Shown here in pieces: positions 9,432-15,560 of a stretch of DNA of 38,431 nucleotides. How positions within the stretch are numbered: position 1 is the stretch's first letter; every line of letters starts with the position of its first letter. The notes under the pieces are model-generated. The model was not told the origin of the DNA. It was given only the letters and a program-made list of their open reading frames with translations, and made no database searches. Made by a program: the position numbers and the translations under genes. The stretch covers positions 1,318 through 39,748 of the forward strand of contig NZ_JADWYU010000128.1 in NCBI RefSeq assembly GCF_016786325.1, read 5' to 3'. Source of the stretch: Frankia nepalensis (lineage in GTDB: Bacteria > Actinomycetota > Actinomycetes > Frankiales > Frankiaceae).

Positions 9432-11951
9432 ATGAACGACGGACCGATGGGGGACGAGCGCACCCGGGTGGTGCCGACGTCGACGTACCGGCTGCAGCTG
9501 CACCTCGAGTTCAACTTCACCGACGCCGCCGTGATCGTGCCCTACCTGGCGGCCCTCGGCGTGTCGCACCTGTACCTGTCGCCGGTGCTGGAGGCGGCGC
9601 CCGGGTCGATGCACGGCTACGACGTGGTCGAACACGGCCGGATCAGTCCCGAGCTCGGCGGCGCCGGCGGGCTGCGCCGGCTGGCCGCCGCCTGCCGGCG
9701 GGCCGGGCTCGGCCTGGTCGTCGACGTGGTGCCCAACCACATGGCGATCCCGACCCCCCAGACGGCGAACCCGGTCTGGTGGTCGGTGCTGCGCGAGGGG
9801 CCGGACTCCCCCTACGCCAGCTGGTTCGACATCGACTGGGCCTCACCCGACAACCCGGGCAAGGTGCTGATGCCCTTCCTCGGCCAGCCGCTGCGCGACT
9901 GCCTCGCCGCCGGCGAGCTCCGGCTGGTCAGGGGCGGCGACGACGCCGCGGGCGGCGGCCTCGACGGGCTGGCCCCCGACGGCGACGACGACTGGGTCCT
10001 CGTCTACCACGACCACGTCCTGCCGGTGGCGCCGGGCACCGCCGACCCGGACGACCTCGCCGGCACGCTCGACGCCCAGTACTACCGGCTGTGCTGGTGG
10101 CGCGCCGCCGGCACCGAGCTGAACTACCGCCGGTTCTTCGACATCACCACCCTGCCGGCGCTGCGGCAGGAGGACCCGGACGTCTTCGCCGCCACCCACC
10201 GGCTGCTGATCGACCTCGTCCAGGCCGGCACCGTCGAAGGGCTGCGGATCGACCACCCCGACGGGCTCGCCGACCCCGAGGAGTACCTGCGCCGGCTCTC
10301 GGACGCCACCGGCGGTGTCTGGACCGTCGTCGAGAAGATCCTCGAGGGCGACGAGTCGCTGCCCGAGTCGTGGGCCTGCGACGGCACCACCGGCTACGAG
10401 GCGCTGAACCGGGTCACCCGGCTGTTCCTCGACCCGATGGCCGCCCGCCCGCTGGCGGCGCTCTACGCCGAGGTCTCGGGCGAGGCGCCCGACTGGGCGC
10501 ACGCCGCGCACCAGGCCAAGCTGGACGTGCTCGACAACGTGCTGCGCCCCGAGCTGGACCGGCTGACCACCCTGGCGCTGACCGAGGCGCGCCGGGAACG
10601 CGCGGACCTGACCCGCACCGGGCTGCGCGAGGCGCTGCGCGAGGTGCTCGCCGGCTTCGCCGTCTACCGGGCCTACGTCCGCCCGGACGGCACCCCCTCG
10701 CTGGAGGCCCGTTCCCACGTGGTGCGGGCCTGCGAGACGGCCCGCCGGCGGCTGCCGCGCCGCTCCACCGAGATCGACCTGATCGAGGACCTCGCGCTCG
10801 GCGGCCCGGCGGAGTTCGTCACCCGCTTCCAGCAGACCTGCGGCCCGGTCATGGCCAAGGGCGTCGAGGACACCGGGTTCTACCGCTTCGGCCAGCTCAT
10901 CGCGCTGAACGAGGTCGGCGGCGACCCGGGCGCCTACCCGGCGTTCCCCTGGGGGCACCCGCGCAGCGCCGTGCACGAGTTCCACGAGGCGAACGTGACG
11001 ACGGCGCGGACCTGGCCGCTGACGATGACCACGCTGTCCACGCATGACACGAAGCGCTCGGAGGACGTGCGGGCCCGCCTGGCGGTGCTGTCCGAGGACC
11101 CCCGCGGCTGGGCGGACGTGGTCCGCCAGCTCGGCCGGCTCGGCTACCGGCACACCGACGCCGAGCGCGGCTGGCCGGACCCGGTCACCATCTACCACCT
11201 GATCCAGGCGCTGGTGGGAGCGTGGCCGATCTCCGCGGAGCGGGTTCGCCAGTACATGGTCAAGGCGGTCCGGGAAGCCAAGGCCCACACCTCGTGGACC
11301 GACCAGGACCCCGCCTACGAGAACGCGCTCACCACCTACGTCGACGCCGCCCTCGAGGATCCCGACTTCGTCGGCGCGCTGGAGAACTACGTCTCGACGA
11401 TCGTCGAGCTCGGCCGGCAGAACTCGTTGGCCGCCCGGCTGCTGCAGCTGGCCGCGCCCGGCATCCCCGACGTCTACCAGGGCCAGGAGCTCTGGGACCA
11501 CTCGCTGGTAGACCCGGACAACCGCCGTCCGGTCAACTTCGGCGAGCGCGCGAAGCTGCTCGGTGAGCTCGGCACCGACCCGGTGCTACGCCGCCCGCCG
11601 GCCCTCGACGACACGGGAGCCGCCAAGCTGCTGGTGGTCTCCCGGGTCCTGCGGGTGCGCCGGGAGCACCCGGAGTGGTTCGGCCCCGGCGCCTCCTACC
11701 GGCCGCTGTGGGCGTCCGGCTCGGCCGCCGAGCACCTGGTGGCGTTCGTCAGGGCCGAGTCGGTGGTGACCGTCGTCCCCCGTCTCGTCCTCGGCCTGCG
11801 CCGCGGCGGCGGCTGGCGCGACACCACGCTCACCCTCCCCGACGGCCGGTGGCTCGACGTCCTCACCGGCCGCCGCCACGACGGCGGCACCGCCTACGTG
11901 CTGCGCCTCCTGCGTGACTTCCCCGTCTCCATGCTCATCCGCGTCCCCTGA
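9432..11951 (+). CDS. treY: malto-oligosyltrehalose synthase
   Basis: The 839-residue GH13 enzyme converts the reducing-end alpha-1,4 bond of maltooligosaccharides to alpha-1,1, making maltooligosyl-trehalose. Family features include STYRLQLHLEFNFTDAA at the start, LSPVLEAAPGSMHGYDVV, VVDVVPNHMA, EGLRIDHPDGLADPEEYL (nucleophile region), VEKILEGDESLPESW (acid/base Glu) and LSTHDTKRSEDVRARL. The C-terminus contains the usual PGIPDVYQGQELWDHSLVDPDNRRPV block. It follows treX in the same direction. The gene ends 17 bp inside the 3' end of the convergent DUF4287 gene. treZ is not adjacent but lies 6.5 kb away on the other strand. Confidence 0.95.
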   Translation: MNDGPMGDERTRVVPTSTYRLQLHLEFNFTDAAVIVPYLAALGVSHLYLSPVLEAAPGSMHGYDVVEHGRISPELGGAGGLRRLAAACRRAGLGLVVDVVPNHMAIPTPQTANPVWWSVLREGPDSPYASWFDIDWASPDNPGKVLMPFLGQPLRDCLAAGELRLVRGGDDAAGGGLDGLAPDGDDDWVLVYHDHVLPVAPGTADPDDLAGTLDAQYYRLCWWRAAGTELNYRRFFDITTLPALRQEDPDVFAATHRLLIDLVQAGTVEGLRIDHPDGLADPEEYLRRLSDATGGVWTVVEKILEGDESLPESWACDGTTGYEALNRVTRLFLDPMAARPLAALYAEVSGEAPDWAHAAHQAKLDVLDNVLRPELDRLTTLALTEARRERADLTRTGLREALREVLAGFAVYRAYVRPDGTPSLEARSHVVRACETARRRLPRRSTEIDLIEDLALGGPAEFVTRFQQTCGPVMAKGVEDTGFYRFGQLIALNEVGGDPGAYPAFPWGHPRSAVHEFHEANVTTARTWPLTMTTLSTHDTKRSEDVRARLAVLSEDPRGWADVVRQLGRLGYRHTDAERGWPDPVTIYHLIQALVGAWPISAERVRQYMVKAVREAKAHTSWTDQDPAYENALTTYVDAALEDPDFVGALENYVSTIVELGRQNSLAARLLQLAAPGIPDVYQGQELWDHSLVDPDNRRPVNFGERAKLLGELGTDPVLRRPPALDDTGAAKLLVVSRVLRVRREHPEWFGPGASYRPLWASGSAAEHLVAFVRAESVVTVVPRLVLGLRRGGGWRDTTLTLPDGRWLDVLTGRRHDGGTAYVLRLLRDFPVSMLIRVP

Positions 11952-12285
11952 CCTCACCCGCGCCGCCCGCGGCGGCGCCCTCCTCGACGGCGCCCCTCCC
12001 GCCGCCGCGCGCGACGGCGGCTCCCTTCCGGGCGTCGTCCCGCGGCGGCGCGCCCGACGGGCCGGCCGGCGTGACGACGCCCGCCGGGGCGGTGCCCTTG
12101 AGCACGGCCACGATGGCCATCGCGTGTCCACGGCCAAGCCCGTAGTCGGCGGCCAGCCAACGGATCACGTCACCGGCCTTGACCGCGGGCCCGGTCAGCC
12201 CCCGGTCAGCGGCGAGGCGAACGAAGTCGTCGGGCCCGAGACCCGTCCTGTCCTTGATCGTCCGCAGGTATCCCTCGAAGGTCAT
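11935..12285 (-). CDS. DUF4287 domain protein
   Basis: The 116-residue product begins with a DUF4287 domain (TFEGYLRTIKDRTGLGPDDFVRLAADRGL, then KAGDVIRWLAADYGLGRGHAMAIVAVLKG). A low-complexity Gly/Ala/Arg tail follows and reads antisense into treY. The domain is common as a small stand-alone protein in soil bacteria and has no firm function. The last 17 bp overlap treY tail to tail. The gene lies 76 bp downstream of the sigma-factor gene in the same direction and could be the third gene of that operon. Confidence 0.85.
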   Translation of the reverse strand: MTFEGYLRTIKDRTGLGPDDFVRLAADRGLTGPAVKAGDVIRWLAADYGLGRGHAMAIVAVLKGTAPAGVVTPAGPSGAPPRDDARKGAAVARGGGRGAVEEGAAAGGAGEVRGRG

Positions 12286-12361: not shown

Positions 12362-13657
12362 TCATGGCGTGTCCCGTTCTGGGTCCGCGGGCTCCCGCGG
12401 GTTCGCGCGGCCGCGCGGCAGCCCCGCGAGCTTGGCGCCGAGCACGGCCCTGTCCGCCGCGCTGTCGGTGAGGCCCAGCGCGGTCCGCAGCCGCGTCCCG
12501 GCCGCGGCGACCTCGCCGTCAGCGAGATCGAGTTCGGCCAGAGCCGCGTGGAGGAGGTGGAACCGGGTCATGCGCGCGTCGGCCAGGAGCGGCTCGAGAA
12601 TCGTCCTGCCCGCGGCGGTGCCACGCGCCTTCCAGTGGGCGATGCCGCGGTTGAGCTCGACGACGGGGCCGGGGTTGCTCGCGGCGTACGCGTCGTAGAG
12701 CCGCGCGATCTCCGCCCAGTCGGTCAGCTCCGCGCTGGGCGCGCGCGCATGGCAGGCGGCGATGCCGGCCTGAGCGGTGTAGGGGCCGCCGCCGAGCGCC
12801 CGGGCCCGCTCGAGGCCCGCCAGCCCGCGGCGAATCAGGAGCCGGTCCCACAGCATCCGGTCCTGCTCCTCCAGCAGCACCGGCCCGGTCGGGCCGTGGC
12901 GGGCCCCGAAACGGGACGCCTGGATCTCCAGGAGCGCCAGCAGGCCGTGCGCCTCGGCCACCCGCGGCATCAGGTGGGCCAGCATCCGGGCCAGCCGCAG
13001 GGCCTCCCCCGTCAGGTCCTGGCGGGTCCACGACTCTCCGGAGGTGGCCGCGTAGCCCTCGTTGAAGATGAGATACACGACCTCCAGCACCGAGGGCAGC
13101 CGCTGGGCCTGCTCGTCGGGCGTCGGATCCTCGAACGCGATCCTCGCCTGGGCGATCGCGCGCTTGCCGCGCGCGATCCGCTGGCCGGCGGTCGTGGACG
13201 GCACCAGCTGCGCTCTGGCGATCTCCTGGGTGGTCAGTCCACCGAGCAGCCGGAGCGTGAGCGCCACCCGGGTGTCTCGCCCGAGGAGGGGGTGGCAGCA
13301 GATGAAGATAAGCCGCAGCAGGTCGTCCTCGATGCGGCCGTCGACCCGCGCCTCGAGCCCTTCTTCGTCGGATGTCATCGATGCCCGCTCAGCCATCTCC
13401 CGGTATCTCGCGTCGCGGCCGGCCTCGCGGCGCACCACGTCGACCGCGCGCCGCTTCGCGACGGTCATCAGCCAGGCGCCCGGCCGGTTCGGCGGGCCGT
13501 CGACCGGCCAGTGCTCGATCGCGGTGACGAAGACGTCCTGCGCGACCTGCTCGGCGAGGCCGGGATCCCTGGTGATCCGGGTCGCTGTCGCGACGAGCTT
13601 CGGGAACTCGAGACGCCAGAGCGCCTCGAGGTCCGCGCGCCACGCCTCGCCGGTCAG
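12362..13657 (-). CDS. ECF42-type RNA polymerase sigma factor with C-terminal helical extension
   Basis: The product is about 431 residues. Region 2 (LWRLEFPKLVATATRITRDPGLAEQVAQDVFVTAIEHWP, AWLMTVAKRRAVDVVRRE) and region 4 (VALTLRLLGGLTTQEIARAQLVPSTTAGQRIARGKRAI) are followed by a long DUF6596/TPR-like extension with LIFNEGYAATSGE, MLAHLMPRVAEAHGLLALLE, LWDRLLIRRGL and LYDAYAASNPGPVVELNRGIA. This architecture, and a YCII/DGPF gene directly upstream, define the ECF42 group. No ATG, GTG or TTG lies at the family N-terminus. A CTG at 13657 (CTGACCGGCGAG) overlaps the YCII stop as CTGA and gives the expected MTGEAWRADLEALW start. The open frame continues far upstream but is antisense-like there. 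Confidence 0.88.
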   Translation of the reverse strand: MTGEAWRADLEALWRLEFPKLVATATRITRDPGLAEQVAQDVFVTAIEHWPVDGPPNRPGAWLMTVAKRRAVDVVRREAGRDARYREMAERASMTSDEEGLEARVDGRIEDDLLRLIFICCHPLLGRDTRVALTLRLLGGLTTQEIARAQLVPSTTAGQRIARGKRAIAQARIAFEDPTPDEQAQRLPSVLEVVYLIFNEGYAATSGESWTRQDLTGEALRLARMLAHLMPRVAEAHGLLALLEIQASRFGARHGPTGPVLLEEQDRMLWDRLLIRRGLAGLERARALGGGPYTAQAGIAACHARAPSAELTDWAEIARLYDAYAASNPGPVVELNRGIAHWKARGTAAGRTILEPLLADARMTRFHLLHAALAELDLADGEVAAAGTRLRTALGLTDSAADRAVLGAKLAGLPRGRANPREPADPERDTP

Positions 13658-14040
13658 CTGAAGTCCCCGGGACCACCAGGACCGCCCGGACCACCGGGAG
13701 CGGCGACCTGACGGATCTCGACCTCGCACCCACCGTCGTGGACGACGGCGAACCGGCGGCCCCATTCCTTCGCCTCGGCGAGATCCCGGGCCTCGATGAA
13801 GGCGATTCCGCCGACCAGTTCCTTCGCCTCGGCGAACGGCCCGTCGGTGACGCTGATCTCGCCGTCCTGGGCCGTGATCCGGGCCCCGGCCGAGCTGGGC
13901 AGCAACCCGTCGGCCTGCAGGAGGACCCCGGCGGCGGCCGCCTCCGCCATGAACTCGCCCATGCGGGCGAACAGCTCGGGGCTGGGCGGGTTCCCGGCCT
14001 CGAAGTCCTCGTTGGTCTTGCTCATCATCAGGAACCGCAT
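13654..14040 (-). CDS. YCII-related DGPF-domain protein, partner of the ECF42 sigma factor
   Basis: The 128-residue product has a ferredoxin-like YCII fold: MRFLMMSKTNEDFEAG at the start, a conserved GLLPSSAGARI, then the family signature SVTDGPFAEAKELVGG and ARDLAEAKEWGRRF. The tail is Gly/Pro repeats (GGPGGPGGPG). DGPF proteins sit next to ECF42 sigma factors in many actinobacteria and are thought to belong to their regulon; their biochemical role is unknown. GAGGAGG lies 8 bp before the ATG. The stop overlaps the proposed CTG start of the sigma gene, so the two are coupled. A TGTCGA-N17-CGAC promoter lies upstream. Confidence 0.92.
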   Translation of the reverse strand: MRFLMMSKTNEDFEAGNPPSPELFARMGEFMAEAAAAGVLLQADGLLPSSAGARITAQDGEISVTDGPFAEAKELVGGIAFIEARDLAEAKEWGRRFAVVHDGGCEVEIRQVAAPGGPGGPGGPGDFS

Positions 14041-14095
14041 GGACGTGGCCTCCTCGGCTGACGACAGCGCCCGCGGAGCGCGGGCGCACTACCGC

Positions 14096-14122
14096 GTCGA
14101 ACGGACATGGCCAGTTTCGACA
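14096..14122 (-). promoter_or_regulatory. ECF42-type promoter for the YCII-sigma operon
   Basis: On the reverse strand TGTCGA (14122-14117) is followed by a 17-bp spacer and CGAC (14099-14096). TGTCGA at -35 and CG(A/T)C at -10 is the motif reported for ECF42 sigma factors. It sits about 56 bp before the YCII ATG and points at the operon encoding the sigma factor itself, so positive autoregulation is expected. Confidence 0.75.
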
Positions 14123-14153
14123 TCGGTCCGCACCAAAGTTCCAGCCGCCGCGA

Positions 14154-14180
14154 TGTCGAAGCCCCGGAGTGCTGGCCGAC
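14154..14180 (+). promoter_or_regulatory. ECF42-type promoter for the DHFR-like gene
   Basis: TGTCGA (14154-14159), a 17-bp spacer and CGAC (14177-14180) give exactly the same arrangement as the opposing promoter at 14096-14122. It is 40 bp before the ATG of the reductase gene, leaving a leader of roughly 34 nt. This places the reductase in the same sigma-factor regulon. Confidence 0.75.
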
Positions 14181-14220
14181 GTACAGCCGTCAACCACCAT
14201 CCAGCCAGGAGGAGATCCGC

Positions 14221-14787
14221 ATGCGCCCCCTCACCGCCCACTACTTCGTCTCCGTCGACGGCATCGTCGACTCACCGCAGGACTGGCACTTCCCGTACGC
14301 GAATCCCGAGGTCATGAGCGTCGTCGGCGAGGCGACGGCCGGCGTCGACGCCCTCCTGATGGGCCGGCGCACGTTCGAGGAGTGGAGGGCCTTCTGGCCG
14401 GGGCAGTCCGGCTTCCCGCTCGCCGACTTCATCAACAACACGCACAAGTACGTCGTGACCGGCACCCTGTCCGACCCCGGCTGGGGACCGGCCACGATCC
14501 TCGCGGGCGACGCCGTCCCCGCGGTCAGGGATCTGAAGGACCAGCCCGGCGGGCGGATCGCCATCAACGGCAGCGGCACTCTCACCCGCGCCCTGCTGCG
14601 CGCCGGTCTCGTCGACGAGCTGCACCTGCTCGTCCATCCCGTGGTGGTCGGAGCGGGCAGGCACCTGTTCGAGGACGGCGGCGCCCCGGTCGGCCTCGAC
14701 CTCGCCGCCCAGCGGACCTTCGGCAACGGCGTCACCTACCACGTCTACAAGCCCGCGGCCGCCGACGCCGCGGCCGCCGCGGCCTGA
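14221..14787 (+). CDS. dihydrofolate reductase / RibD C-terminal family protein
   Basis: The 188-residue product has the DHFR-like fold of the RibD C-terminal family: TAHYFVSVDGIVDSPQDWHFPY, VDALLMGRRTFEEW (nucleotide-binding loop), TGTLSDPGW, GGRIAINGSGTLTRALLRAGLVDELHLLVHPVVVGAGRHLF. It is probably an NADPH-dependent reductase; the substrate cannot be read from the sequence, and such stand-alone proteins are distinct from FolA. AGGAGG lies 8 bp before the ATG. The tail is poly-Ala. The gene is divergent from YCII, and its promoter matches the ECF42 motif. Confidence 0.88.
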   Translation: MRPLTAHYFVSVDGIVDSPQDWHFPYANPEVMSVVGEATAGVDALLMGRRTFEEWRAFWPGQSGFPLADFINNTHKYVVTGTLSDPGWGPATILAGDAVPAVRDLKDQPGGRIAINGSGTLTRALLRAGLVDELHLLVHPVVVGAGRHLFEDGGAPVGLDLAAQRTFGNGVTYHVYKPAAADAAAAAA

Positions 14788-14973
14788 GAGATCACGCTCG
14801 CGGCCGGCGAACTGACGAACCGCTCCCAGCAGCACGCGCCGCGCGCGGGCCGAGCAAGGCCAGAACGTTTCCGACGGCCGCGCTCACCACCGCCATCCGC
14901 GACTTCATGGCCCCCGTTGACACCACCCCTGCCTGGCCCCCATCCACCATGCAGACCCCACCGGTACACCAAC

Positions 14974-15208: not shown

Positions 15209-15271
15209 CAACATAACGCGGGAGCCCGCGAGCCTCCCCGAAGGGAGGCGAGCAGAGAAGCCCCGATCGCG

Positions 15272-15343
15272 TGGGCGATACTGGGATTGAACCAGTGACC
15301 TCTACCGTGTCAAGGTAGCGCTCTCCCACTGAGCTAATCGCCC
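15272..15343 (-). tRNA. tRNA-Val (anticodon GAC)
   Basis: The reverse strand shows acceptor GGGCGAT pairing with ATCGCCC, D arm AGCTCAGTGGG, anticodon stem CTACC/GGTAG around TTGACAC (anticodon GAC), T arm with GGTTCAATCCC, and discriminator A. It decodes GUC and GUU. It is the last gene of a Gly-Cys-Val transcript, 26 bp after tRNA-Cys. Confidence 0.95.
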
Positions 15344-15369
15344 TCAAGGGTTTACACCCGAAAAGTGCG

Positions 15370-15441
15370 AGGCGGAGGCGGGAATCGAACCCGCGTACAG
15401 GGCTTTGCAGGCCCTTGCCTAAACCACTCGGCCACTCCGCC
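15370..15441 (-). tRNA. tRNA-Cys (anticodon GCA)
   Basis: The reverse strand shows acceptor GGCGGAG/CTCCGCC, anticodon stem AGGGC/GCCCT around CTGCAAA (anticodon GCA), T arm GGTTCGAATCC, and U at the discriminator position as required by cysteinyl-tRNA synthetase. It is the middle gene of the tRNA operon. Confidence 0.95.
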
Positions 15442-15487
15442 GGAGGAGGCCGTTATGGGCTGAGACCTCTTGACCTCGCTACTTCCG

Positions 15488-15560
15488 AGCGGACGACGGG
15501 ATTCGAACCCGCGACCCTCACCTTGGCAAGGTGATGCTCTACCAACTGAGCCACGTCCGC
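15488..15560 (-). tRNA. tRNA-Gly (anticodon GCC)
   Basis: The reverse strand shows acceptor GCGGACG/CGTCCGC, D arm GGCTCAGTTGGTAGAGC, anticodon stem TCACC/GGTGA around TTGCCAA (anticodon GCC), T arm GGTTCGAATCC, and discriminator U. It is the first gene of the Gly-Cys-Val operon and lies 13 bp downstream of a candidate -10. Confidence 0.95.

Follow-up and report, generated by a model that had tools for sequence, protein, structure and literature searches.

Two divergent ECF42-type boxes between a YCII–sigma operon and a RibD_C reductase-family gene in Frankia nepalensis

Introduction

ECF42 sigma factors are said to recognize promoters with the motif TGTCGA / CG(A/T)C, and those of Streptomyces venezuelae reportedly control essentially their own DGPF operons. 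Three such factors, Sven_0747, Sven_7131 and Sven_4377, are named for this organism in PMC8999054, which puts the C-terminal extension of ECF42 factors at about 200 residues. According to PMC8999054 and PMC9023288, ECF42 factors need this extension to be active, and it is regarded as the probable sensor; YCII proteins may take part too. In Sinorhizobium meliloti, promoters of the ECF42 factor RpoE10 are reported ahead of two operons and of a YCII gene (PMC6180224), and in our own reading these promoters appear to contain TGTCGG and CGTC cores. Overexpression of RpoE10 raised six genes, some with glyoxalase-like domains, and brought no rise of the YCII–sigma operon (PMC6180224); autoregulation is therefore not universal among ECF42 systems. 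For Pseudomonas putida ECF-10 (Tettmann et al. 2014), the summaries in PMC8999054 and PMC6180224 connect the factor, by way of its knockout, with biofilm and with stress and antibiotic resistance.

A literature search on ECF42, YCII and the dihydrofolate reductase family together with sigma factors, which left subscription papers mostly outside, returned no title on a RibD_C target and no paper joining any two of ECF42, RibD and the DGPF domain. In the window analysed here, a 38,431-nucleotide stretch of Frankia nepalensis DNA, a preliminary description had placed TGTCGA-N17-CGAC, with the same spacer, on both strands of the gap between a YCII–sigma operon and a DHFR-like gene.

Results

A 180-bp gap separates a leftward YCII gene (13654-14040, minus strand; PF03795, 58.5 bits), the first of the sigma operon, from a rightward gene (14221-14787, plus strand) that encodes a RibD_C (DHFR-like) protein of the reductase family (PF01872, 89.6 bits, residues 4-172). 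The nearest solved relative of this reductase by sequence is 8jsv, a dihydrofolate reductase family protein (E 6.8e-19). The YCII gene starts at ATG 14040 behind a Shine-Dalgarno-like GAGGAGG (14049-14055, minus), and the reductase gene at ATG 14221 behind a Shine-Dalgarno-like AGGAGGAG (14207-14214, plus). A longer mechanical reading frame would place the reductase start at 14107, which is unlikely to be real because several homologues align from reductase residue 1 and AGGAGGAG precedes ATG 14221.

The YCII gene is followed by the gene for an ECF sigma factor with a C-terminal extension (12362-13657, minus) and by a DUF4287 gene (11935-12285, minus; PF14117, 69.3 bits), which its orientation and spacing mark as the probable third gene of the operon. 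No ATG, GTG or TTG was seen in the sigma frame beside the YCII stop (13654-13660, minus). The sigma start is uncertain; the nearest candidate is a CTG that overlaps the YCII stop as CTGA, and the factor may begin at this rare codon via translational coupling. Downstream of the reductase gene lie three consecutive tRNA genes, Val-GAC, Cys-GCA and Gly-GCC (15271-15560, minus). In another locus (L077 2120-2308) a RibD_C gene has a DUF4287 gene immediately behind it, with 57% identity to that of the window, so that the two families adjoin elsewhere too.

Pfam models, run on 12362-13660, recognize sigma regions 2 and 4 only (Sigma70_r2, Sigma70_r4_2) in the 432-residue product, followed by an extension of about 260 residues with DUF6596 at 187-286 (117 bits). 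The stop of the PF03795 gene in the same operon overlaps the presumed sigma start, and the operon is preceded by a TGTCGA - CG(A/T)C promoter motif, the left box, whose pattern we re-derived from 74 of 114 other loci. No anti-sigma gene was found among five Pfam-checked neighbours (YCII, DUF4287, RibD_C, an alpha-amylase-family gene and prephenate dehydratase), and no Pfam TPR model matched the extension at E up to 0.01. The ECF42 architecture originally assigned to the sigma factor is thus borne out in region 2, region 4, the DUF6596 extension and the upstream YCII gene, but goes beyond the Pfam result on TPR repeats.

Motif scan and matrix both place the two boxes in the gap, on both strands and with the same spacer, as had been described. 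The left box (14096-14122, minus) faces the YCII gene at 55 nt from its start, and the right box (14154-14180, plus), the weaker match, faces the reductase gene at 40 nt; their -35 hexamers are 31 bp apart. The two had been called identical, which is true of the hexamer, the core tetramer and the spacer length; their extended -10 regions differ, with CCGTTCGACG on the left and CTGGCCGACG on the right. The left -10 matches exactly the extended consensus -10 of 74 YCII boxes. The right box lacks consensus T21 and T22, the TT before CGAC, carrying G and C at positions that are T in 66 and 70 of the 74. A matrix built from these 74 independent boxes, with the window excluded, scores the left box best on both strands of the window (29.7 bits) and the right box second-best (12.9 bits), ahead of the next site at 4.6 bits; this ranking is partly circular, its sites having been chosen by the same string, and serves as description only. 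A consensus scan of 13900-14900, of a kind not suited to every promoter type, found no sigma-70-like promoter.

The class to which the window belongs is rich in ECF42-type sigma factors: 97 of its 296 genomes searched have a close match to the window's (E up to 1e-95). From the match list, in which the window and one place of the same genus also appeared, we took 126 places and sampled 120 of them as sigma loci; 114 have a YCII match upstream of the sigma gene. In 74 of these 114 loci TGTCGA-N17-CGWC stands on the sense strand no more than 250 bp from YCII, as against 0-7 loci for every other spacer from 10 to 24 (N18, 7); the remaining 40 include exact N18 forms, one-mismatch forms and some with nothing similar. 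The fit of the motif to ECF42 factors, noted in the preliminary description, is supported by these counts. The extended consensus of the 74 boxes reads TGTCGATCCGG...CCGTTCGACG and lies about 40-85 nt before the extrapolated start. Outward second boxes were found in four of the 114 loci. Two of these (L166, L235) are TGTCGA...TCGACA self-palindromes, which we rejected as evidence, and the other two face DUF998 genes (L177 and L233, the same place as L062).

Within the genus, a search with the window's sigma gave 42 places, 30 of which were examined as loci. An N17 box precedes YCII in all six of the loci L032-L037, where sigma identity is 47%; other genus loci show the box, variants or none. 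An orthologous gap was not found in the seven other genus members, in which the best sigma match is 47%, and a search of contigs for related loci returned only ten at 40-44% identity, none of them with a RibD_C match.

How readily could such boxes arise by chance? In its loose form (N15-19, CGWC) the motif matches the window 4 times where 1.9 matches would be expected, a number reached by 11 of 100 shuffles, so a single loose match means nothing; genome-wide, the loose N15-19 scan gives 1185 matches against 290 for the reversed control and is uninformative. The exact N17 form is rarer: the 10.73-Mb genome has 56 such sites, 30 on one strand and 26 on the other (reversed control, 13). From this number one would expect 0.0005 boxes per strand in a gap of 180 bp, and 0.002 divergent pairs in the whole genome. 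The window's two boxes are the sole close pair among the 56 sites, and they are not chance occurrences. A strict divergent-pair pattern, which omits pairs whose two members both have CGTC, has a single match in this genome. It is present in 3 of 396 genomes drawn from the phylum and in 3 of 393 drawn from the class; the draws overlap in genomes and both include the window's own, and the reversed-pattern control is 0 in both tables. The four distinct places so found are the window, G059 (L061), G275 (L062) and G523 (L074), and a YCII gene lies under one box in all four.

A genome-wide scan for the motif had been proposed as a check. It yielded the 56 exact sites with their one divergent pair, but the looser scans gave no readable regulon: a stricter version of these (TGTCGA-N16-18 with GNTCGWC) has 72 genome matches against 12 for the reversed control, and only 6 of the 72 have a 17-bp spacer, so that no genome-wide regulon can be read from it. 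The exact N17 sites of this genome that we inspected comprise the window's two, one at the C370 sigma locus and nine more (C92, C66, C77 and six without conclusion). At C77 (L297 1-1621) lies a CRISPR array in which 26 repeats were found at a spacing of 61 bp, with one gap of 121, and one match of the genome scan falls inside it.

RibD_C genes are repeatedly linked to boxes of this type. With the window's RibD_C protein as query, 42 of 296 class genomes gave a match (E up to 1e-35), and we compared 64 distinct RibD_C genes, the window's included, from 30 loci and 23 further stretches. Among the 13 genes in loci with a YCII or sigma match, excluding the window's, eight have TGTCG[AG]-N17-CG[AT] within 180 nt; the five boxless ones are four further RibD_C genes in boxed loci and the gene of L336, which lies tail to tail beside its sigma. 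In loci with neither match, 49 of 50 RibD_C genes are boxless and one is boxed. Of the control spacers, N13 is also frequent (5/13 and 4/50), in the boxed loci at least partly because CGT sits inside the same -10; the others give 0-2. The single boxed exception (L338; G492, contig 99) is a one-strand run of RibD_C-like genes behind an ECF42-type box, with no YCII or sigma match in 5.5 kb, and is a possible trans target.

Where RibD_C, YCII and, in most cases, sigma genes share one orientation, an ECF42-type box precedes the first RibD_C gene in nine of nine loci, counting one added from the window's genus (L046), and starts 77-128 nt upstream of it. The hexamer is TGTCGA in L095, L099, L104 and L334 and TGTCGG in L327, L332, L333, L341 and L046; no sigma match was found in L333. 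Family f91 accounts for eight of the nine and a single sigma clade for seven, so these loci are not independent. In L039 and L040, of the same genus and near L046 in the sigma tree, a box of the same kind stands straight before YCII and there is no RibD_C match, unlike L046, where RibD_C lies between box and YCII. A divergent arrangement recurs in a distant genome, G059 (L061/L349): one box faces YCII and the other, pointing away, faces RibD_C, the 4.9 kb examined show no sigma match, and the sigma locus of that genome (L348) bears a similar box, TGTCGATTCC...GTTCGTCT. Its RibD_C frame is split, and this copy may be damaged or mis-assembled; in the same family, the YCII gene was matched in 0 of 4 other genomes searched.

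Other loci share the genes and lack the boxes. In Embleya sp. NBC_00888 (L135) the layout is that of the window, with identities of 41% for RibD_C, 50% for YCII and 50% for sigma, and in G629 (L245) a DUF998–RibD_C pair diverges from YCII–sigma. Both gaps are boxless on either strand with one mismatch allowed, as is, at the same tolerance, the gap of a Streptomyces plasmid with a divergent DUF998 gene (L136). Only 2 of the 120 sampled sigma loci (L240, L245) have a RibD_C match, with a facing box in neither, and a weak RibD_C match downstream of sigma in L052 is boxless. On alignment, the Embleya (L135 3277-3659) and G629 gaps share a conserved palindrome around ATTCCCTGTC; a canonical promoter does not fit there and was rejected.

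That different palindrome in Embleya and G629, together with the inversion of the window's two TGTCGA arms, would suit a reading of these arms as an operator, bound by a dimeric activator or repressor, instead of two promoters. We regard this as highly improbable, since in 74 of 114 loci the element precedes YCII in the sense direction, always 17 bp from CGAC, and it appears on the opposite strand in only four, a bias and a spacing that fit a promoter and not an operator.

A quick tree (INDEPENDENCE) of 149 sigma proteins, from which 8 of 157 rows had been dropped, groups seven of the eight included co-oriented RibD_C loci in one clade (support 100). The eighth (L345, the same place as L095) and the G059 sigma hang from the unresolved base. 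The Embleya and G629 sigmas pair (99) within the window's large clade, apart from the window's own sigma, which is a long branch (1.21) of unsure placement. The tree suggests that RibD_C has become associated with ECF42 more than once, the place of the window's branch remaining unsure.

Does the right box work at all? The left box alone might be functional; the right would then be a copy that has decayed or is fortuitous, with another promoter serving the reductase. The missing TT and low matrix score of the right box would agree with this, as would the boxless divergent RibD_C loci of Embleya and G629 and the rarity of second outward boxes in the sampled loci. We nonetheless consider it unlikely: the right box sits at the proper distance and in the proper orientation for the reductase in a gap where chance would hardly supply one, RibD_C genes bear such boxes in other loci, and no sigma-70-like alternative emerged from the consensus scan, within the promoter types to which that scan is suited.

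Boxes also precede genes for DUF998 (L062, L177, L247, L215), DUF6069 (L047), mycothiol-S-transferase (L074), DoxX-like proteins (L140, L160) and short-chain dehydrogenases (L148, L178) and, in the genome of the window itself, a gene of the glyoxalase family (C92, L300). One member of each family, and two for DUF998 (L062, L247), were checked with Pfam, and L177, L215, L160 and L178 are named by sequence similarity. The reductase joins a mixed group of box-carrying genes, part of which is related to redox or detoxification functions.

Four sigma genes of ECF42 type are present in the window's genome, which also has a second promoter dialect, TGTCGAGAACG...GGCTCCGTC, before the YCII–sigma operon at C370 (L058), the glyoxalase-family gene at C92 and a Pfam-less reading frame of unsure start at C66 (L295). 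This dialect suggests separate sub-regulons for the paralogous sigmas. With several paralogues at hand, and with no box of its own found at the C351 sigma locus (L042), a different ECF42-type factor might read the window's boxes in a shared or crossed regulon. We think this improbable, as the left box precedes the window sigma's own operon and fits the YCII-box consensus, and the second dialect differs in its extended -10.

Discussion

In our view the adjacent ECF42-type sigma factor is likely to read the gap as a divergent promoter region, with the operon autoregulated and the RibD_C reductase co-induced. The sigma would be gated by its own C-terminal extension, not by an anti-sigma factor. 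At the left box it would direct RNA polymerase to transcribe YCII, sigma and DUF4287, hence positive autoregulation; at the right box it would direct polymerase to the reductase gene, which would thus be co-induced with the YCII protein. That the local sigma uses both boxes, and that the right box is active, we infer from sequence. The right promoter is probably the weaker because its -10 is poorer, and with the -35 hexamers so close, two polymerases may hinder each other.

The observation made in the preliminary description is confirmed, and its interpretation largely holds as a prediction. Membership of the reductase in the regulon gains from the recurrence of boxed RibD_C genes in ECF42 loci, but the boxless Embleya and G629 gaps and the 49 boxless RibD_C genes in unlinked loci count against it.

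In a wider reading, to which we give about an even chance, ECF42 systems would be small plug-in regulons, in which an autoregulated YCII–sigma core is joined by accessory genes that each gain a box of their own. RibD_C would have been recruited repeatedly (before the operon, divergently, in trans), so that YCII and RibD_C probably deal with one and the same stress or metabolite. If so, the ECF42 signal could be approached via the reductase's substrate: were RibD_C a recurrent target, the purified enzyme, whose cofactor and substrate could be assayed, would offer a handle on what ECF42 systems respond to. The comparison also yields a usable promoter description, a 17-bp spacer with the extended -10 GTTCGACG, and names further neighbours that carry a box.

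The window shares with S. venezuelae the long C-terminal extension, the adjoining YCII/DGPF gene, the lack of an anti-sigma factor and the TGTCGA / CG(A/T)C promoter, as that motif is reported; in contrast to the S. venezuelae factors, which reportedly serve their own DGPF operons, it has a second box facing a RibD_C reductase. P. putida ECF-10 resembles the window's sigma in being an ECF42 factor with a similar gene context, and we know of no reductase promoter for it. S. meliloti RpoE10 shares the YCII gene upstream of sigma and has a small regulon; it differs in that its own YCII–sigma operon is unresponsive to overexpression and that no RibD_C target appears in the passages of PMC6180224 on its regulon. 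Judged by its sequence, the window's pair is most likely a sensible, ordinary extension of the known ECF42 regulatory family, an autoregulated switch that would co-induce a reductase.
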